Source: Candidatus Fimenecus excrementavium (GTDB lineage: Bacteria; Bacillota; Clostridia; Oscillospirales; Acutalibacteraceae). From it: a DNA stretch of 64,000 bases. Where the stretch lies: contig DVGI01000009.1 of assembly GCA_018712805.1 (NCBI GenBank), forward strand, positions 1 through 64,000, given 5' to 3'. The notes beneath the pieces were generated by a model. It was not told the DNA's origin. It searched no databases and saw nothing but the letters and a program-made list of their open reading frames with translations. The translations under genes and the position numbers were made by a program. Shown here piece after piece: positions 6,430 through 42,966 of the stretch. The stretch's first letter is position 1, and every line of letters starts with the position of its first letter.

Positions 6430-6522
6430 ACAATTCTTATACAAGGAAAAGGAGAAATACGGCTTAAAAATGGACACGGAAAAAGCGGGTGTCCAATATG
6501 TTCGGTTTCGGTCGAAAGAGCG

Positions 6523-6550
6523 TTGACTTTAACGAAAAAAAGAATACAAT
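6523..6550 (+). promoter_or_regulatory. Promoter of glycerophosphodiesterase gene
   Basis: TTGACT (6523-6528), a 16-base spacer, then TACAAT (6545-6550), 36 bases before the chosen ATG. Confidence 0.75.
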
Positions 6551-6586
6551 AAAATTAGATTTCATTTTAAATTACAGGTGATTGCC

Positions 6587-7588
6587 ATGAAAATAAAAAC
6601 GGTATTGAAAGCAACCGGCGGTCTGGCGCTCGCGCTGTCTGCGTTTTATCTTGTGATTTCTCACGATTACGACGACCCGGTCGAGCCGGTTTTGCCGGCG
6701 GACAAATCCGGCGACAAAAAAAGAAATCCTTATATTGTGCCTAACGGCGAAACAATGGTTTCCGCCCACCGTTCCGGTGCGGGGATTGCGCCGGAAAACA
6801 CCTTGCGGGCATTTCGCAACTGTGTGGAAAGCGATTCGTTTTTTACCGATGTGTTTGAATTTGATTTGCATTTGACCGAAGACGGCGAGCTGATTTTGCT
6901 GCACGATGACACTTTCGACCGCACGAGCAACGCAAAAGAAGCCTTCGGCAAAGCGGGCGTGCTCCCGAAAGAGAAAACTTATGAAGAACTTTATAAGCTT
7001 AACATGGGCGAACATTTTGAAACCGCCGACGGCAAAACGCCGTATGCGGGCTTGCGCGGCGACCAAATTCCGGACGATTTGCATGTGATGCGCCTGCGGG
7101 ATATTTTCACCTATCTTGCGCCTTTTAAAAATTACAGATTTATCATTGAACTCAAAGACGGCGGCGACCGCGGGCGCCGCGCAGCGGACAAGCTTTACGA
7201 AACCTTGTCGGAATTCGGCCTTTTAAAGCGCGCGGTTATCGGCACGTTCCATGGGGAAATCAGCCGTTATATGTCTGAGAAATATCCCGACATGCTGCGC
7301 TCGGCGAGCGTGCGGGAGGTTTGCGGTTTTTATTTTTCGAGCCTGTTCGGGATTCACCACAAACCCGGGCACTACCGTTTTGCCGCGCTCCAAATTCCTT
7401 ATGACGACCACGTCTTTAATCTCGGCACGGCGCGGCTTGTCAACTACGCGCACAAAAACAATATTGCCGTGCAGTACTGGACCATAAACAAGCCCGAAAA
7501 AGTGCGGCACTTGATTCGTATCGGCGCCGACGCGATTATGAGCGATCTTCCCGATATGGTATATTCTGTCTTGCGCGGCAAGGCTTAA
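6587..7588 (+). CDS. Glycerophosphodiester phosphodiesterase family protein
   Basis: Predicted to hydrolyse glycerophosphodiesters to glycerol-3-phosphate and an alcohol. The 333-residue protein begins with one hydrophobic helix (about residues 5-25), a signal anchor that would put the enzyme outside the membrane. The GDPD TIM barrel follows, with SAHRSG and APENTL, then FEFDLHLTEDGELILLHDD with the metal-binding Glu/Asp and the second catalytic His, and later IELKDGG and the C-terminal VQYWTINKP with DAIMSDLPD. The start is the ATG at 6587 after ACAGGTG; a GTG three codons earlier is possible. It probably recycles lipid or teichoic acid fragments at the surface. Confidence 0.92.
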   Translation: MKIKTVLKATGGLALALSAFYLVISHDYDDPVEPVLPADKSGDKKRNPYIVPNGETMVSAHRSGAGIAPENTLRAFRNCVESDSFFTDVFEFDLHLTEDGELILLHDDTFDRTSNAKEAFGKAGVLPKEKTYEELYKLNMGEHFETADGKTPYAGLRGDQIPDDLHVMRLRDIFTYLAPFKNYRFIIELKDGGDRGRRAADKLYETLSEFGLLKRAVIGTFHGEISRYMSEKYPDMLRSASVREVCGFYFSSLFGIHHKPGHYRFAALQIPYDDHVFNLGTARLVNYAHKNNIAVQYWTINKPEKVRHLIRIGADAIMSDLPDMVYSVLRGKA

Positions 7589-33853: not shown

Positions 33854-36037
33854 ATGAAGATCATTAAACGAAACGGTGCCGAGGAAACTTTCGATCGGCA
33901 AAAGATCAAAAACGCCATTGAAAAGGCGAACAATGAAACCGACGGGAAGCCGGAATTAACCGAGCGCCAGATGGACTACATTTCTTATGTCATTGAAGAT
34001 TACTGCAAAGAAATGGACCGCGCGCTTTCCGTGGAAGAAATCCAGGAACTCGTCGAAACTCATATCATCAATCAGAACGCGCCCGAAACGGCAAAACGCT
34101 ATATCCGCTATCGCTTTACGCGCAACTTGGCGCGTGCCGCCAACACGACGGACAATCAGATTTTGTCACTGATTGAGTGCAACAACGAAGAAGTCAAACA
34201 GGAAAATTCCAATAAAAACCCGACGGTCAACTCGGTGCAGCGTGACTATATGGCGGGCGAGGTGAGCAAAGACCTCACGAAACGTATTTTGCTTCCCGAA
34301 GACATTGTCAAAGCGCACGAAGAGGGGATTATCCACTTCCACGACGCCGACTATTTTGCCCAGCATATGCACAACTGCGACCTTGTGAATTTGGAGGATA
34401 TGCTCCAAAACGGCACGGTTATTTCCGAAACGATGATTGAAAAACCGCACTCGTTCTCGACCGCCTGCAACATTGCGACCCAGATTATCGCGCAGGTCGC
34501 CTCCAACCAATACGGCGGCCAGTCGATTTCGCTTGCCCACTTAGCGCCGTTTGTCCAGATTTCGCGTGAAAAAATCCAAAAACAGGTGCGCGAAGAAATG
34601 GCCGAAGTCGGTATGGAAATCACCGACGAACAGCTTTCCACCCTTGTGGAAAAACGTGTGCGCGAAGAAATCAAGCGCGGCGTGCAGACCATTCAGTATC
34701 AGGTTGTAACGCTTTTAACCACCAACGGACAAGCGCCGTTTGTCACGGTGTTTATGTACCTCAACGAAGCGAAGAATGAGCAGGAGAAAAAAGACCTTGC
34801 AATCATTATCGAAGAGGTGCTTCGCCAACGCATCATCGGCACGAAAAACGAGGTGGGCGTTTGGGTTACCCCCGCGTTCCCGAAGCTTATCTATGTTTTG
34901 GAAGAAGATAACATTCACGAAGATTCGGAATATTGGTATTTGACCAAGCTTGCCGCAAAATGCACGGCAAAGCGCATGGTACCCGACTACATTTCCGAAA
35001 AAGTGATGCTGAAACTTAAAATCGACGAAAACGGCAACGGCAACTGCTATACCTGCATGGGCTGCCGCAGTTTCTTAACGCCTTATGTCGACGAAAACGG
35101 CAAGCCGAAATATTACGGCAGATTTAACCAGGGCGTTGTCACGATTAACTTGGTCGACGTTGCCTGCACCGCCTGTCAGGACGGCAAAAACGAAGACCGC
35201 TTCTGGGAAATTCTCGATGAACGTCTGGAGCTTTGCCACCGCGCGCTGCAGTGCCGCCACGAACGGCTCGAAGGCACACGTTCCGACGCCGCGCCGATTT
35301 TGTGGCAGTACGGTGCGCTCGCCCGCCTGAAAAAAGGCGAAACGATTGACAAGCTGCTGCACGGCGGCTATTCCACAATTTCCTTGGGCTACGCAGGCCT
35401 TTGGGAATGTGTCTATGAAGTGACCGGCAAAAAACTTACCGAGCCCGAGGGCGAGGCGTTCGGCCTTCGCGTCATGCAGGCACTCAACGACGCGTGCATG
35501 ACGTGGAGAAAAGCGGAAAACATCCACTATTCGCTTTACGGCACACCGTTGGAATCCACCACCTATAAATTTGCAAAATGCCTGCAAAAACGGTTCGGCA
35601 TTATCCCCGGTGTTACCGACCGCAACTATATCACCAACTCTTATCACGTCCACGTGACCGAAGAAATCGACGCGTTCAGCAAATTGGCGCTCGAATCGAA
35701 ATTCCAGGAGCTTTCGCCCGGCGGCGCAATCTCTTATGTGGAAGTGCCGAATATGCAGAACAACATCCCGGCGGTTTTGGAAGTCATGAAGTTCATTTAT
35801 GACAACATCATGTACGCCGAGCTCAACACCAAGAGCGACTACTGCCAGGTGTGCGGCTATGACGGCGAAATCCAGATTGTCAAAGAGGACGGCAAGCTTG
35901 TTTGGCGCTGCCCGAACTGCGGCAACGAGGACCAGTCCAAAATGAACGTTGCCCGCCGTACCTGCGGCTACATCGGCTCCCAGTTCTGGAACCAGGGCCG
36001 TACCCAGGAAATTAAAGAAAGAGTGCTGCACCTGTAA
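33854..36037 (+). CDS. nrdD: Anaerobic ribonucleoside-triphosphate reductase
   Basis: Class III ribonucleotide reductase that makes dNTPs without oxygen. It has 727 residues. The ATP-cone allosteric domain occupies about 1-95 (IKRNGAEETFDRQKIKNAIE). The ten-stranded barrel has active-site cysteines in CYTCMGCRSF (Cys398, 401, 404). The C-terminal zinc ribbon has Cys664/667 and Cys686/689. The glycyl-radical motif RRTCGY has Gly705 as the expected radical site. The ATG follows GAGGGAAG. The activase gene overlaps its stop region directly. Whether it uses formate or a redoxin as reductant cannot be read safely from sequence. Confidence 0.97.
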   Translation: MKIIKRNGAEETFDRQKIKNAIEKANNETDGKPELTERQMDYISYVIEDYCKEMDRALSVEEIQELVETHIINQNAPETAKRYIRYRFTRNLARAANTTDNQILSLIECNNEEVKQENSNKNPTVNSVQRDYMAGEVSKDLTKRILLPEDIVKAHEEGIIHFHDADYFAQHMHNCDLVNLEDMLQNGTVISETMIEKPHSFSTACNIATQIIAQVASNQYGGQSISLAHLAPFVQISREKIQKQVREEMAEVGMEITDEQLSTLVEKRVREEIKRGVQTIQYQVVTLLTTNGQAPFVTVFMYLNEAKNEQEKKDLAIIIEEVLRQRIIGTKNEVGVWVTPAFPKLIYVLEEDNIHEDSEYWYLTKLAAKCTAKRMVPDYISEKVMLKLKIDENGNGNCYTCMGCRSFLTPYVDENGKPKYYGRFNQGVVTINLVDVACTACQDGKNEDRFWEILDERLELCHRALQCRHERLEGTRSDAAPILWQYGALARLKKGETIDKLLHGGYSTISLGYAGLWECVYEVTGKKLTEPEGEAFGLRVMQALNDACMTWRKAENIHYSLYGTPLESTTYKFAKCLQKRFGIIPGVTDRNYITNSYHVHVTEEIDAFSKLALESKFQELSPGGAISYVEVPNMQNNIPAVLEVMKFIYDNIMYAELNTKSDYCQVCGYDGEIQIVKEDGKLVWRCPNCGNEDQSKMNVARRTCGYIGSQFWNQGRTQEIKERVLHL

Positions 36038-36570
36038 TGCGATACGGAGCAATTAAAAAACGAGACATCGCCAACGGACCGGGCGTCCGCGTCGTGTTGT
36101 TCGTTTCGGGCTGTACGCATCATTGCAAAGGCTGTTTTCAGCCGCAAACGTGGGATTTTGATTACGGCGACGATTACACCGCCGACACCGAGCAGGAAAT
36201 TATAGACGCGCTCGAGCCGGACTTTATGAACGGGTTGACGCTTCTCGGCGGCGAACCGTTTGAGCCGGATAATCAGCGTGCGCTTCTCCCGCTTTTGCAC
36301 CGCGTGCGCAACGAAATGCCGCAAAAAACCGTTTGGGCGTTTTCGGGTTATACGTTTGAGGAATTGACCGGCAAAACGGAAAGCCGCGCGCGCTGCGAAG
36401 TGACCGACGAAATGCTGTCGCTTGTCGACGTGCTCGTCGACGGCGAGTTTCAGCTCGACAAGCGCAATATCTCGCTGCAGTTCCGCGGCAGTGAAAATCA
36501 GCGTCTGATTGATTTGCCGAAAACGTTTCAAAGCGGCGAAATCGTCTGGTGGCAGGATACAACCAAATAA
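36037..36570 (+). CDS. nrdG: Anaerobic ribonucleotide reductase activating protein
   Basis: Radical SAM enzyme that puts the glycyl radical on NrdD using S-adenosylmethionine. The 177 residues include GPGVRVVLFVSGCTHHCKGC with the cluster ligands Cys26, Cys30 and Cys33, then LTLLGGEPF for SAM binding. The ATG uses the last base of the nrdD stop (TAATG), so it is translationally coupled to nrdD. The classical NrdG size and motif order differ from the second activase at 38788. Confidence 0.96.
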   Translation: MRYGAIKKRDIANGPGVRVVLFVSGCTHHCKGCFQPQTWDFDYGDDYTADTEQEIIDALEPDFMNGLTLLGGEPFEPDNQRALLPLLHRVRNEMPQKTVWAFSGYTFEELTGKTESRARCEVTDEMLSLVDVLVDGEFQLDKRNISLQFRGSENQRLIDLPKTFQSGEIVWWQDTTK

Positions 36571-38633: not shown

Positions 38634-38667
38634 AAAAACAGCGTCCAAAAAGGGCGCTGTTTTTTTG
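38634..38667 (+). terminator. Terminator of marR
   Basis: AAAAACAGCGTCC-AAAAA-GGGCGCTGTTTTTTT. Confidence 0.93.
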
Positions 38668-38691
38668 TGTAGTTTTGCCTTAGACAAGATT

Positions 38692-38748
38692 CACAATATA
38701 TTGTGTCAAAATTCGACAGATTACCAATTGCGCACAATTTCTTGTAGT
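38692..38748. promoter_or_regulatory. Tandem NrdR boxes upstream of second activase
   Basis: Box 1 is a perfect 14-base palindrome, CACAATATATTGTG (38692-38705). Box 2 (38733-38748), CACAATTTCTTGTAGT, is a near match. The centres are about 41 bases apart, close to four helical turns. Box 2 lies between the -35 and -10 of the promoter. Sequence and tandem placement fit the known NrdR box. The nrdR gene itself is not in the window. Confidence 0.82.
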
Positions 38749-38756
38749 GCTATAAT
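38728..38756 (+). promoter_or_regulatory. Promoter of second anaerobic RNR activase
   Basis: TTGCGC (38728-38733), 17 bases, TATAAT (38751-38756). The spacer is filled by an NrdR-like box. Confidence 0.83.
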
Positions 38757-38787
38757 TTTACTCGTACTGATTTTAGGAGGTGAAGTC

Positions 38788-39477
38788 ATGCGGATAGACG
38801 GGTTACAGACGCTGACGCTTCTCGACTATCCCGGCAAGGTCGCCTGCACAGTGTTCACAAGCGGCTGCAATATGCGCTGTCCGTTTTGTCACAACGCCTC
38901 TTTGGTGTGCGGCGAGGTGCCGCCGTTTATGGAAAAAGAAGAATTTTTCGCTTTTCTCAAAAAAAGAACGGGTGTGCTCGACGGTGTTTGCGTGACCGGC
39001 GGCGAACCGCTGTTGCAGGAGGGGCTGATTCCATTCCTTTTAGAAGTAAAGGAGAAAGGCTTTACAACGAAGCTCGACACCAACGGCCTTTTGCACGACC
39101 GTCTGCGCGCGGTGGTGGAAGCCGGCGCGGTCGATTATGTCGCAATGGACATTAAAAATTGCAAAGCGCGTTACGCCGAAACCGCCGGCGTGCCGGGGCT
39201 TGACCTTGCGCCGATTGAAAAAAGCGTGCAGTTTTTAATGGAGGGAAGCGTGGACTATGAATTCCGCACAACGGTGGTGAAGGAACTCCACAACAAAGCG
39301 GATTTCGACGAAATCGGGCGGTGGCTCAAAGGCGCGAAACGCTATTTTCTGCAAAGCTTCAAAGACTCGGGCGACATTTTAAGCCCCGGGCTTTCCCCGA
39401 TGGAAAAGGCGGATTTGTTGGAAATCCGCGACCGGCTGCGCGCTGAAATCCCGGGTGTGGAACTGCGCGGCGTATAA
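38788..39477 (+). CDS. Anaerobic ribonucleoside-triphosphate reductase activating protein, NrdG2 type
   Basis: A 229-residue radical SAM activase of the NrdG2 group (TIGR02495-like). It starts MRIDGLQTLTLLDYPGKVAC, which is diagnostic. The cluster motif is CNMRCPFC (Cys27, Cys31, Cys34), followed by VCVTGGEPLLQEG for SAM binding and TKLDTNGLLHD. The ATG has a full AGGAGGTGA upstream. It lies between two pairs of NrdR-type boxes and before the redoxin-fused NrdD, its likely substrate. It is unlike the shorter NrdG at 36037, so the two reductases appear to have separate activases. Confidence 0.94.
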   Translation: MRIDGLQTLTLLDYPGKVACTVFTSGCNMRCPFCHNASLVCGEVPPFMEKEEFFAFLKKRTGVLDGVCVTGGEPLLQEGLIPFLLEVKEKGFTTKLDTNGLLHDRLRAVVEAGAVDYVAMDIKNCKARYAETAGVPGLDLAPIEKSVQFLMEGSVDYEFRTTVVKELHNKADFDEIGRWLKGAKRYFLQSFKDSGDILSPGLSPMEKADLLEIRDRLRAEIPGVELRGV

Positions 39478-39520
39478 CAATATATTGTGTTAATTTTCTA
39501 AAAAACGCAATATATATTGT
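39477..39520. promoter_or_regulatory. Tandem NrdR boxes upstream of second nrdD
   Basis: Box 1 is the perfect palindrome ACAATATATTGT (39477-39488). Box 2 contains the perfect palindrome CAATATATATTG (39508-39519). The centres are 31 bases apart, three helical turns, the usual arrangement for NrdR binding. Box 1 begins at the stop codon of the upstream activase. The boxes end about ten bases before the -35. Confidence 0.85.
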
Positions 39521-39529
39521 GCTTTTTTA

Positions 39530-39559
39530 TTGACAAAAACCGGGGCACTGTGTTACTAT
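39530..39559 (+). promoter_or_regulatory. Promoter of second nrdD - trxB
   Basis: TTGACA (39530-39535), 18 bases, TACTAT (39554-39559). It gives a leader of about 65 bases. Confidence 0.8.
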
Positions 39560-39631
39560 AAAAGTGTTCCCGTCCAAACAATTTAAGAGCTTACAGCGAG
39601 GAAATAAATTAAAAAAGAGGGAGAAACAGTT

Positions 39632-41998
39632 ATGTATCAGGTAATCAAACGTGACGGCAAAAAAGTGGATTTTGACCTTTCCAAAATCACGGAAGCTATC
39701 CGCAAGGCTTTTGAAGCGCAGAACCGGCAATACAATATGGATATTATTGAAATGCTGGCGCTCAAAGTCACGGCGGACTTTGAAAAGAAAATCAAAGACG
39801 GGTTTATCGGGGTTGAGGACATTCAAGACAGCGTCGAAGCCGTGTTGATTGCCGCAGATTACGCCGACGTGGCGAAAGGTTATATCCTTTACAGAAAACA
39901 GCGCGAAAAAATCCGCAACATGAAATCCACCGTGCTGGATTATAAAGAAATCGTCGACAATTACGTGCACCTGACCGACTGGCGCGTCAAGGAAAACTCC
40001 ACCGTGACCTATTCCGTCGGCGGCTTGATTTTGAGCAACTCCGGCGCAATTACGGCAAACTACTGGCTGTCGGAAATTTACGACGAGGAAATTTCCCGGG
40101 CGCACAGAAACGCCGATATTCACATTCACGACCTTTCGATGTTAACCGGCTATTGTGCCGGCTGGTCGTTAAAACAGCTGATTCAAGAGGGATTGGGCGG
40201 CGTTCCCGGCAAAATTACCTCCGCCCCCGCGGCGCATCTTTCCACCCTTTGCAACCAAATGGTGAACTTCTTAGGCATTATGCAAAACGAGTGGGCGGGC
40301 GCGCAGGCGTTCTCTTCATTCGACACCTATCTTGCTCCATTTGTAAAGGTAGATAACTTAACATATAAAGAAGTCAAACAGTGCATTCAGTCGTTCATTT
40401 ACGGCGTCAACACCCCCAGCCGTTGGGGCACACAGTCACCGTTCACCAACATTACGCTCGACTGGACCGTGCCGAACGACCTTGCCGAACTCAACGCGAT
40501 CGTCGGCGGCAAGGAAATGGACTTCAAATATAAAGACTGCAAAAAAGAAATGGATATGGTCAATAAGGCATTTATCGAAATCATGGTCGAAGGCGACGCC
40601 AACGGCCGCGGTTTCCAATATCCGATTCCGACCTATTCCATCACCAAAGATTTCGACTGGTCCGAAACCGAAAACAACAAGCTGTTGTTTGAAATGACCG
40701 CCAAATACGGCACGCCGTATTTCTCGAACTATATCAACAGCGATATGGAGCCCAGCGACGTCCGTTCGATGTGTTGCCGTTTGCGTCTGGATTTGCGCGA
40801 ACTGCGCAAGAAATCCGGCGGCTTCTTCGGCAGCGGCGAAAGCACCGGCTCGGTCGGCGTTGTTACCATCAACATTCCGCGCATCGCCTATCTTTCCAAA
40901 GACGAAACGGAATTTTACAAGCGCCTGGACCATATGATGGATATTGCGGCGCGCTCCTTAAAAATCAAGCGTGACATCATCACCCGTCTTTTGAATGAAG
41001 GGCTTTATCCCTACACCAAACGCTATCTCGGCACGTTCAACAACCACTTCTCGACCATCGGCCTTATCGGCATGAACGAAGCCTGCCTCAACGCCAACTG
41101 GATTCGCGAAGACCTCGGCCACGAAAAGGCACAGCAGTTCACCAAAGACGTGCTCAACCACATGCGTGAGCGCCTGTCTGATTATCAGGAGCAGTACGGC
41201 GACCTGTATAATTTGGAAGCGACGCCGGCGGAATCCACGACCTATCGTTTGGCGAAACACGACGTGGAGCGTTACCCCGACATCATCACGGCGGCGGGCG
41301 ACTGCGGCACACCGTATTACACCAATAGTTCGCACCTGCCCGTGGACTTCACCGCGGACATCTTCGAGGCGCTGGACATTCAGGATGAATTGCAGACGCT
41401 TTACACCTCCGGCACGGTGTTCCACGCGTTCTTGGGCGAAAAACTGCCCAGCTGGCAGTCCGCCGCGAATCTCGTGCGCAAAATCGCCGAAAACTACAAA
41501 CTGCCGTATTACACGCTTTCCCCGACCTATTCGGTCTGTAAGGACCACGGCTATATCGCCGGCGAGCACTACACCTGCCCCGAGTGCGGCAATGTGACCG
41601 AAGTTTACAGCCGTATTACCGGCTATTACCGCCCGGTGCAGAACTGGAACGACGGCAAAGCCGAGGAATTCAAACACAGAAAACTTTATGACATTGCCAA
41701 TTCTCATTTGAGAAGAGAGCGTCCGACGGCGTCGCAAAGCGCCGCACCCGCAGTTAACAAGAATACGGCGGACAATCTCCTTTTGTTCACCACCAAAACC
41801 TGCCCGAACTGCAAAATGGCAAAGGCGGTTTTAGACAAAGCCGGCCTTGCCTATACCGTCGTGGACGCCGAAGAAAATGCGGACATGACCGAGCAGTATG
41901 GCGTGACCCAGGCGCCGACGCTTATTGCGGTCGGTGCGGATAAATTCACAGCATATGCAAATGCTTCTAATATCCGAGCGTTTGCAGAAAGGGCTTAA
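39632..41998 (+). CDS. nrdD: Anaerobic ribonucleotide reductase with fused C-terminal redoxin domain
   Basis: A 788-residue class III ribonucleotide reductase with an unusual tail. The ATP-cone is at about 1-90 (VIKRDGKKVDFDLSKITEAI). The barrel has MCCRLRLD (Cys381, Cys382) at the place of the active-site cysteine, and GMNEACLN (Cys485). The zinc site uses Cys636, His639 or another ligand, Cys649 and Cys652. RITGYYRPVQNWNDGK puts the glycyl radical at Gly664. After a linker of about 25 residues rich in Ala/Ser, a glutaredoxin/thioredoxin-like domain (about 714-788) has KTCPNCKMAK (Cys724, Cys727) and the cis-Pro motif QAPTLI. The redoxin probably reduces the active-site disulfide after each turnover. 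trxB follows three bases later. Confidence 0.95.
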   Translation: MYQVIKRDGKKVDFDLSKITEAIRKAFEAQNRQYNMDIIEMLALKVTADFEKKIKDGFIGVEDIQDSVEAVLIAADYADVAKGYILYRKQREKIRNMKSTVLDYKEIVDNYVHLTDWRVKENSTVTYSVGGLILSNSGAITANYWLSEIYDEEISRAHRNADIHIHDLSMLTGYCAGWSLKQLIQEGLGGVPGKITSAPAAHLSTLCNQMVNFLGIMQNEWAGAQAFSSFDTYLAPFVKVDNLTYKEVKQCIQSFIYGVNTPSRWGTQSPFTNITLDWTVPNDLAELNAIVGGKEMDFKYKDCKKEMDMVNKAFIEIMVEGDANGRGFQYPIPTYSITKDFDWSETENNKLLFEMTAKYGTPYFSNYINSDMEPSDVRSMCCRLRLDLRELRKKSGGFFGSGESTGSVGVVTINIPRIAYLSKDETEFYKRLDHMMDIAARSLKIKRDIITRLLNEGLYPYTKRYLGTFNNHFSTIGLIGMNEACLNANWIREDLGHEKAQQFTKDVLNHMRERLSDYQEQYGDLYNLEATPAESTTYRLAKHDVERYPDIITAAGDCGTPYYTNSSHLPVDFTADIFEALDIQDELQTLYTSGTVFHAFLGEKLPSWQSAANLVRKIAENYKLPYYTLSPTYSVCKDHGYIAGEHYTCPECGNVTEVYSRITGYYRPVQNWNDGKAEEFKHRKLYDIANSHLRRERPTASQSAAPAVNKNTADNLLLFTTKTCPNCKMAKAVLDKAGLAYTVVDAEENADMTEQYGVTQAPTLIAVGADKFTAYANASNIRAFAERA

Positions 41999-42000
41999 AT

Positions 42001-42915
42001 ATGATTGATATTTTAATCATCGGCGCCGGAACCGCCGGCCTGACCGCGGCAATTTATGCTGCGCGCGCCGGCAAATCCGTGACCGTGTTGGAATGTGAAA
42101 GCATCGGCGGGCAGATTAGCTCTTCGCCGCTGGTCGAAAACTACCCCGGCTATCAAAACATCAGCGGCAGCGCGTTCTCCGATGCGCTTTACGAACAGGC
42201 AACGGCGCTCGGCGCAAAATTAGAGTTTGCCCGCGCGACTTCCGTGCAGGACAAAGGCGACCGAAAGATTGTCACCACCGACAGCGGAACGACGTTTGAA
42301 TGCCGCGCGCTGATTGTGGCAAGCGGCGTAAAGCACCGCCATTTAGGCATCGACGCTGAAGCCGCCTACGCCGGCCGCGGGGTGTCTTATTGCGCGATTT
42401 GTGACGGCGCGTTTTTCCGCAATAAAATTACGGCGGTTGTCGGCGGCGGCAACGCTGCACTGCAAAGCGCCATTTATCTTTCCGACATCTGCGAAAAAGT
42501 TTATTTGATTCACCGCCGCACCGGTTTTCGCGCGGAACAGGCGGTTGTCGAGAAAATGCAGTCGATCGGCAATATCGAGCAGCTGCTCAATAAAACGGTC
42601 GCTGACCTTTCCGGCGAACCGACGCTTTCCACCGTCACATTGCGCGACACCGTGACCGGGGAGACCTCTGAAATCACGGTCAACGGCTTGTTCGTCTCGA
42701 TTGGCCAAGTGCCCGAAAACGACGTGTACCGTGATTTGATAAAGCTTGACGAAAGCGGCTTTATCGTCGCCGACGAGTCTTGCCTGACCTCTTGCCCGGG
42801 CGTGTTCGCGGCAGGGGATTGCCGGACAAAAAAGATTCGCCAGCTGACCACCGCTGCGGCGGACGGCAGCGTCGCCGCCCTCGCCGCCTGCGACTATGTC
42901 AACCAATTTGCGTAA
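42001..42915 (+). CDS. trxB: Thioredoxin reductase-like flavoprotein
   Basis: A 304-residue FAD/NAD(P)H pyridine nucleotide-disulfide enzyme. The N-terminal FAD motif is ILIIGAGTAGLTAAIYAARA. The redox-active CAIC (Cys131, Cys134) sits in SYCAICDGAFF, where CATC is usual. The second dinucleotide motif VVGGGNAALQSAIYLS is followed by HRRTGFRAE, and the C-terminal FAD contact is GVFAAGDC. HRR suggests NADPH use, as in classical TrxB, although some clostridial enzymes of this type take electrons from ferredoxin. It starts three bases after the redoxin-fused NrdD, which is its probable electron acceptor. Confidence 0.93.
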   Translation: MIDILIIGAGTAGLTAAIYAARAGKSVTVLECESIGGQISSSPLVENYPGYQNISGSAFSDALYEQATALGAKLEFARATSVQDKGDRKIVTTDSGTTFECRALIVASGVKHRHLGIDAEAAYAGRGVSYCAICDGAFFRNKITAVVGGGNAALQSAIYLSDICEKVYLIHRRTGFRAEQAVVEKMQSIGNIEQLLNKTVADLSGEPTLSTVTLRDTVTGETSEITVNGLFVSIGQVPENDVYRDLIKLDESGFIVADESCLTSCPGVFAAGDCRTKKIRQLTTAAADGSVAALAACDYVNQFA

Positions 42916-42928
42916 TTGATTCAACCAA

Positions 42929-42966
42929 TAAAAAACACCGGACGAAAATCCGGTGTTTTTTATTTT
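42929..42966. terminator. Bidirectional terminator
   Basis: ATAAAAAACACCGGA-CGAAAA-TCCGGTGTTTTTTATTTT lies between trxB and the convergent XRE gene. Confidence 0.94.

Follow-up and report, generated by a model that had tools for sequence, protein, structure and literature searches.

A redoxin-fused class III ribonucleotide reductase and its neighbouring thioredoxin reductase in Candidatus Fimenecus excrementavium and relatives

We analysed a stretch of 64,000 nt of Candidatus Fimenecus excrementavium (contig DVGI01000009.1, assembly GCA_018712805.1), called the window below, which comes from a genome of 1.85 Mb that is 97% complete. The window contains two class III ribonucleotide reductase (RNR) loci, nrdD1–nrdG1 and then nrdG2–nrdD2::redoxin–trxB, whose nrdD genes are 3.6 kb apart. 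This work concerns the second locus, in which the reductase carries a redoxin domain at its C-terminus and is directly followed by a gene for a thioredoxin reductase.

The nrdG2–nrdD2–trxB locus

The nrdD2::redoxin gene (39632..41998, + strand, as are the other genes of the locus) encodes a protein of 788 amino acids composed of an ATP-cone (residues 3–92; 84 bits in Pfam), the NrdD domain (121–686), a linker (about 690–714) and the redoxin (about 715–787). An earlier note on this DNA, made from the letters alone, had described here an NrdD with the glycyl radical motif RITGYY (Gly664) and a CPNC redoxin (Cys724/Cys727, cis-Pro), preceded by an NrdG2-type activase and directly followed by a TrxB with CAIC. 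The open reading frame (ORF), the Pfam matches, the motif positions and an alignment confirm the former, and the ORF coordinates together with the TIGR02495 and TIGR01292 matches confirm the latter. Only two bases lie between the nrdD2 stop and the ATG of trxB (42001..42915), which encodes a FAD thioredoxin reductase of 304 amino acids with the motifs CAIC, GGGNAALQ and HRRTGFR (TIGR01292, 346.8 bits for a cut-off of 343.45). The nrdG2 gene (38788..39477) encodes the radical-SAM activase of the glycyl radical (TIGR02495 NrdG2, 194.9 bits for a cut-off of 131.15). A longer nrdG2 ORF, 38665–39477, opens at TTG 38665, but the TIGR02495 match begins at its residue 44, which makes ATG 38788 the likely start; AGGAGGTGA stands 5′ of this putative start.

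NrdD2 is a class III RNR by its scores against PF13597 (NRDD, 646 bits) and NF006126 (1152.8 bits, cut-off 548) and by its RITGYY motif, in which Gly664 (41621..41623, +) is the glycyl radical site. The finger-loop motif MCCR occupies residues 380–383 (40769..40780, +). Alignment with the Thermotoga maritima NrdD places Cys175 opposite T. maritima Cys125 and Glu529 (41216..41218, +) opposite Glu495, the column named as the proton source in PMC9669993, which makes Glu529 the putative proton source of NrdD2. Across 90 aligned relatives, fused and unfused, the barrel cysteine Cys175 does not vary, nor do Met380, Cys381, Cys382, Glu529 and Gly664, and the MCCR and Glu motifs are present in 217 of the 217 classified loci described below. 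The NrdD2 subtype, as defined by Wei et al. and given in PMC4493059, has a CC finger loop, an active-site Glu, and thioredoxin in place of formate. The window protein has the sequence features of this subtype, a third cysteine (the CC finger loop) and the active-site Glu, and its MCCR fits, as a motif match alone, the text on RNRdb subclass NrdDh4 in PMC4493059. The earlier note had listed residues 381/382 and 485 as active-site cysteines. The first two stand, but position 485, which could be located in 99 fused proteins, is a Cys in 42 and a Gly in 49 of them, and Cys485 is conserved in less than 50% of an alignment of 29 fused proteins; it was rejected as a conserved catalytic residue. To judge from the alignments, Cys175 is the likely disulfide partner in its place.

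The redoxin (41774..41995, +), with CPNC at 724–727 and cis-Pro762, matches the Pfam Glutaredoxin (36.3 bits, cut-off 22.9) and Thioredoxin (28.2 bits, cut-off 23.5) models, and Cys724, Cys727 and Pro762 are invariant in the 29 aligned fused proteins. Its CxxC, its cis-Pro and the thioredoxin fold of its structure model place it in the glutaredoxin/thioredoxin superfamily. Its score of 24.9 bits against TIGR02194 is under the cut-off of 85.75, so it is glutaredoxin/thioredoxin-like and is not classed as NrdH. It is the sole PF00462 match in the source genome. In an AlphaFold2 model of NrdD2 built on 90 sequences (mean predicted local distance difference test, pLDDT, of 88) the redoxin is folded, while pLDDT is below 50 at residues 699–711 and also at residues 390–401, directly after MCCR. 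Modelled alone, the redoxin reaches a pLDDT of 95 and matches thioredoxin folds of the PDB at a best E of 1.7e-4; the matches with E <0.001 include entries for Grx2 and NrdH. The redoxin is thus predicted to be a folded domain on a disordered or flexible linker, which with its roughly 25 residues could bridge a distance of tens of angstroms.

Spread of the fusion and of the adjacent TrxB

Relatives were picked by similarity to the window protein, and the frequencies that follow describe this neighbourhood of NrdD. The 249 loci include 241 with the gene, of which 221 are distinct: 162 fused, 55 unfused and four truncated by the end of a contig and left uncounted, the fused state being called by the presence of a CxxC. 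Among the relatives sampled, the fusion is therefore the rule and not an unusual single case (162 of 217 classified distinct loci, the window's included), and the idea that it is rare was rejected. The CxxC is CPNC in 151 of the 162 fused proteins, CPKC in six, CAKC in two, and CPRC, CVNC and CPQC in one each; on average 52% of the positions differ between redoxin domains, yet these 151 are exactly CPNC. Between the radical Gly and the first redoxin Cys lie 47 to 125 residues (median 62, 160 proteins): the length of the tether varies and the domain stays. A scan of genome contigs found at least 594 stretches that encode a relative; the 80 retained all reach residue 776 or beyond and belong by record name to Bacillota (76), Lentisphaerota (two) or no assigned phylum (two). 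At least 59 of the 393 genomes of a class sample have the fused gene (one of them, G418, ends within the redoxin) and at least five more have it split over contigs; in a phylum sample, the match extends into the redoxin in 14 of 398. On a tree of 264 NrdD cores, 50 of them viral, the fusion state changes four times, a pattern compatible with a single gain followed by a small number of losses, the direction not being provable from the tree.

Six of the unfused relatives (L155–L159 and L161) are probable natural losses and are also without an adjacent trxB. The NrdD of one of them, L158, ends in a short SCTLC tail that recalls the two cysteines at the C-terminus of class I enzymes, and L157, of the same genus code, has no such tail. 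In L164, which came from a genome search, a free redoxin ORF (6456–6698, − strand) lies 267 nt upstream of an unfused nrdD of 50% identity, the sole such case among the 55.

The earlier note had asked how often such fusions co-occur with an adjacent trxB. The gene is directly downstream of nrdD in 96 of the 149 fused loci with at least 1 kb of sequence available, versus none of 52 unfused loci, with a median gap of 15 nt. The activase gene nrdG2 is upstream in 111 of 152 fused loci (1 kb of upstream sequence available) and downstream in 44 of 55 unfused ones. The adjacent TrxBs differ from other TrxBs. Among the 96 flagged loci, 93 passed a motif filter (CxxCD, GxGxAG), and they were compared with 34 other proteins from 40 stretches: the tree shows two label changes, compared with 29.9 in shuffles (FastTree; one long-branch warning among the others). 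The CxxC is CAVC, CALC or CAIC in 88 of the 93 adjacent TrxBs and CATC in 31 of the 34 others. By their sequences, the adjacent TrxBs form a lineage apart, and the window TrxB appears dedicated by descent, not by exclusivity. An exclusively dedicated TrxB was rejected for the source genome, where no TrxB but that of the window passes the cut-off and one free thioredoxin (WCGPC) is present; the window TrxB probably serves both the redoxin and this thioredoxin.

The window TrxB has both HRRTGFR and GGGNAALQ and is predicted to use NADPH; it is not of the FFTR type, in which the NAD(P)H motifs are missing. HRRxxxR is kept in only 19 of the 93 adjacent TrxBs, this one included, and in 22 of the 34 others. 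The remaining 74 have QNL or QDL (60), TLF, TMF or TWM (10) or another sequence (four), and most keep GGGNxAxQ. Loss of the 2′-phosphate site with retention of the dinucleotide loop suggests that NADH or another donor is used. The earlier note's dedicated adjacent reductase thus survives as a lineage of its own; the sole above-cut-off TrxB of the source genome, the genomes with TrxB only elsewhere (below) and the 74 of 93 proteins without the NADPH motif speak against the rest of that claim. In Mantel tests on 91 of the 93 adjacent TrxBs (999 permutations), distances correlate between NrdD core and TrxB (0.72), core and redoxin (0.60), and TrxB and redoxin (0.67), each value being reached in 0 of 999 permutations. 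After regression on the NrdD core, the correlation between TrxB and redoxin is still 0.40 (0 of 999). Such correlations show joint inheritance, and only the regressed value hints at a direct fit between TrxB and redoxin.

Viral copies and control elements

The 80 IMG/VR loci gave 67 distinct NrdD proteins: 22 fused in one frame, one more (L255) with a broken frame that was placed by hand, which makes 23, and 44 unfused. Just upstream of nrdD, 24 of the 44 unfused viral loci have a short redoxin ORF whose end is at most 50 nt from the first aligned codon of nrdD; one redoxin match was found elsewhere among these 44. In L277, redoxin, nrdD and nrdG are consecutive. Phage-type neighbours occur in the five loci checked: a terminase next to the fused nrdD of L250, a virion protein and a dUTPase in L256, a polymerase in L262 and in L277, and a helicase and a polymerase-like protein in L265. 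The redoxin of L265 falls short of 0.001 with the Pfam glutaredoxin model and was found only by a custom profile. That the redoxin is separate in some viral loci and fused in others is independent support for the idea that it works on NrdD. The fused NrdDs of L261–L266 are clearly without an ATP-cone, as Pfam confirms for L265; the same label is unreliable for L255, L306, L316 and L327.

Other features of the viral genes were noted in passing. In-frame inserts are present within the nrdD of L279, L306 and L323, at or just after MCCR in L279 and L323; intein-splicing matches in Pfam were found for L279 and L306 (with an HNH endonuclease in L306) and none for L323. An intein in a phage nrdD has been reported (PMC3653736). 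A faecal record labelled ‘Bacteriophage sp.’ (MT835493.1, 47422–49815) encodes a full-length fused NrdD that is 79% identical to the window's.

The locus also has candidate control elements. Palindromes were scored against the consensus of the NrdR box. One such box-like palindrome, TCACAATATATTGTGT (38691..38706, one mismatch), lies upstream of nrdG2, and a pair precedes nrdD2, at 39475..39490 (two mismatches) and, about 31 bp from the first, at 39505..39522 (start 39505–39507; two to three mismatches). The window has 11 such matches at up to three mismatches, both strands counted, for 1.78 expected. A box at up to two mismatches is present within 300 nt upstream of 91 of 158 fused nrdD genes, compared with 0.5 expected and none of 158 in either of two control stretches, and the spacing is 31–33 bp in 32 of the 64 fused relatives that have two boxes at up to three mismatches. 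The source genome has a match over cut-off to TIGR00244, the NrdR model. Regulation by NrdR is described as involving box pairs about three turns apart (PMC9110341), and the two palindromes upstream of nrdD2 have this spacing by sequence. The nrdG2–nrdD2–trxB unit is thus apparently under NrdR control. Consensus matches further point to a candidate sigma-70-like promoter (39530..39559, +; TTGACA-18-TACTAT with TG, 10 of 12 matches) and to an intrinsic-terminator-like stem-loop 3′ of trxB (42927..42964, +; 16-pair stem, T tail), the region having five terminator-like sites, fewer than shuffles (8.5).

The other locus, nrdD1–nrdG1 (33854–36570), is of the formate type, with an MGCR finger loop (NF006732, 929.5 bits), and is preceded by weak NrdR-like boxes with three to four mismatches. 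A search of the source genome for class I or II RNR with PF02867 gave no match. We infer that the cell would own two anaerobic RNRs with different electron sources, formate for the nrdD1 product and the redoxin for NrdD2.

Electron supply of the fused enzyme

Taken together, these sequences make it probable that NrdD2 is a thioredoxin-type (NrdD2-like) class III RNR with a tethered reductant, in which the redoxin would be the physiological reductant and the adjacent TrxB the reductase of the redoxin. Installation of the glycyl radical by NrdG2 is known chemistry of the family, and NrdG2 would here install it on Gly664. By analogy with the Neisseria bacilliformis enzyme, each turnover would leave Cys175 oxidised in a disulfide with either Cys381 or Cys382, which the C-terminal CPNC redoxin would reduce in cis or across the dimer. 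In the T. maritima structure the finger-loop motif lies outside the barrel (PMC4493059), which suggests, speculatively, a finger-loop flip that presents Cys381/382, and the redoxin may meet these mobile cysteines there. The adjacent TrxB would reduce the redoxin, with NADPH as the electron source here to judge from its motifs, and probably also the single free thioredoxin. Since the unit is apparently controlled by NrdR, both the reductase and its supply of electrons would track the demand for deoxyribonucleoside triphosphates (dNTPs). The complete self-fed chain proposed in the earlier note holds to this extent: a tethered redoxin, a separately evolving lineage of adjacent TrxBs and apparent NrdR control argue for it, by inference from genomes.

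Several observations weigh against this proposal. The contrast in trxB between fused and unfused loci rests on few independent events, with four fusion-state changes and one to three independent pairs, too few to give a test on independent branches any power, and trxB adjacency switches 23 times along the NrdD tree. The 59 fused genomes listed comprise 30 with an adjacent TrxB, 28 with TrxB only elsewhere and one without any; when four with less than 1 kb downstream (G241, G308, G379, G418) are left out, 24 of the 55 judgeable ones have TrxB only elsewhere, so adjacency is not required. NrdR-like boxes are also found upstream of 29 of 53 unfused nrdD genes and hence do not single out the fused unit. 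As for the enzyme itself, Met380 of MCCR is kept, which is compatible with the use of formate; the source genome has a pyruvate formate-lyase-like gene; and the six relatives mentioned above, at 73–85% identity, are without the redoxin and have both MCCR and the Glu motif unchanged, which indicates that the domain is dispensable. These last points, with the invariance of Met380 in the 90 relatives, would suit an enzyme that uses formate as its turnover donor and the redoxin as a maintenance arm, rescuing oxidised cysteines of the finger loop or zinc site after oxygen, and most double-cysteine class III enzymes are indeed described as keeping the Met and as equipped for formate or thioredoxin (PMC9669993). 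Routine turnover is a better fit for the co-variation with TrxB, the NrdR-type boxes and the redoxin ORFs beside viral nrdD genes, none of which excludes repair, and we regard a mere maintenance role as improbable. By sequence alone the electron donor could be either formate or thioredoxin, and the strongest clue to it is the fused redoxin.

The adjacent TrxB could instead be the general TrxB of the cell, placed there by operon convenience with no dedicated chain. That it is the only TrxB over cut-off in the source genome, which has one free WCGPC thioredoxin, and that 16 of the 30 genomes with an adjacent TrxB have no other at 1e-60, fits such a role. The other 14 have a second TrxB, and the adjacent TrxBs form a separate lineage in which the CxxC and the 2′-phosphate motif differ; a merely general reductase was set aside on the strength of that lineage and is kept here as a doubtful rival. 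It is far less believable that the tethered domain is the general glutaredoxin-like redoxin of the cell, attached to NrdD by an accident of fusion. The source genome has no PF00462 match besides it, as this would have it, but the domain persists in 162 of 217 loci, which belong to many families, and in viral contigs it is fused to nrdD or just upstream of it.

Related arrangements are known. Methanosarcina barkeri, the studied NrdD3 case, is said to use a separate NrdH and a ferredoxin disulfide reductase. NrdD3 with NrdH (PMC9176816) resembles the proposed system in having a glutaredoxin-like redoxin as reductant, and differs from NrdD2 of the window in lacking the Glu (PMC4493059). The N. 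bacilliformis NrdD (NrdD2 subtype; Wei et al., 2014, through citing papers) likewise has two finger-loop cysteines, a barrel cysteine and the Glu, and uses a protein thiol reductant, but its thioredoxin is separate, its finger loop is SCCR without the Met, and no fused domain is mentioned in the citing text consulted. A glutaredoxin domain fused to NrdD has been named in a single case, grx::nrdD of Lachnospiraceae bacterium TWA4, found by a RefSeq search (PMC6187632) and known here by description, which gives no domain order, TrxB neighbour or spread. In the Grx::NrdB of Facklamia ignava (PMC6187632) the fused redoxin was shown to reduce its own RNR; there the enzyme is of class I, the domain is N-terminal on the radical subunit and the assay used glutathione. 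TrxA3/TrxB3 of the Clostridioides difficile grd operon (PMC10880999) similarly form a thioredoxin system in the operon of its client, with the difference that the client is glycine reductase and the proteins are separate. Finally, the atypical thioredoxin reductases FFTR, DvTRi and dcTR1 lack HRRxxxR, like 74 of the 93 adjacent TrxBs and unlike the window TrxB, which keeps HRRTGFR; the combination of QNL/QDL with GGGNxAxQ (60 of 93 neighbours have QNL/QDL, and most keep GGGNxAxQ) is not described in the literature on atypical TrxBs consulted in part.

Thioredoxin-dependent class III RNRs and one grx::nrdD fusion (PMC6187632) were thus already known, and in the open-licence literature, as far as its text was available, we found neither the breadth of the fusion, the TrxB lineage and its loss of the NADPH motif, nor the viral forms, and no mention of TrxB as a neighbour of nrdD. 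A broader proposal, to which we give about an even chance, is that in Clostridia the class III RNRs of one clade are fed by a self-contained chain under NrdR control, made of a tethered redoxin and a co-evolved TrxB subfamily that has mostly moved off NADPH (the donor being NADH or a protein), and that phages carry the reductase and the redoxin, some without the ATP-cone, i.e. without the dATP brake. These observations touch on the thiol route to the buried active site of class III enzymes and on the choice between formate and thioredoxin in MCCR enzymes. As the natural fusion fixes the redoxin partner, both questions can be addressed with one polypeptide and one reductase. The fusion also suggests that many anaerobes and some phages couple the synthesis of dNTPs to an electron supply of its own.

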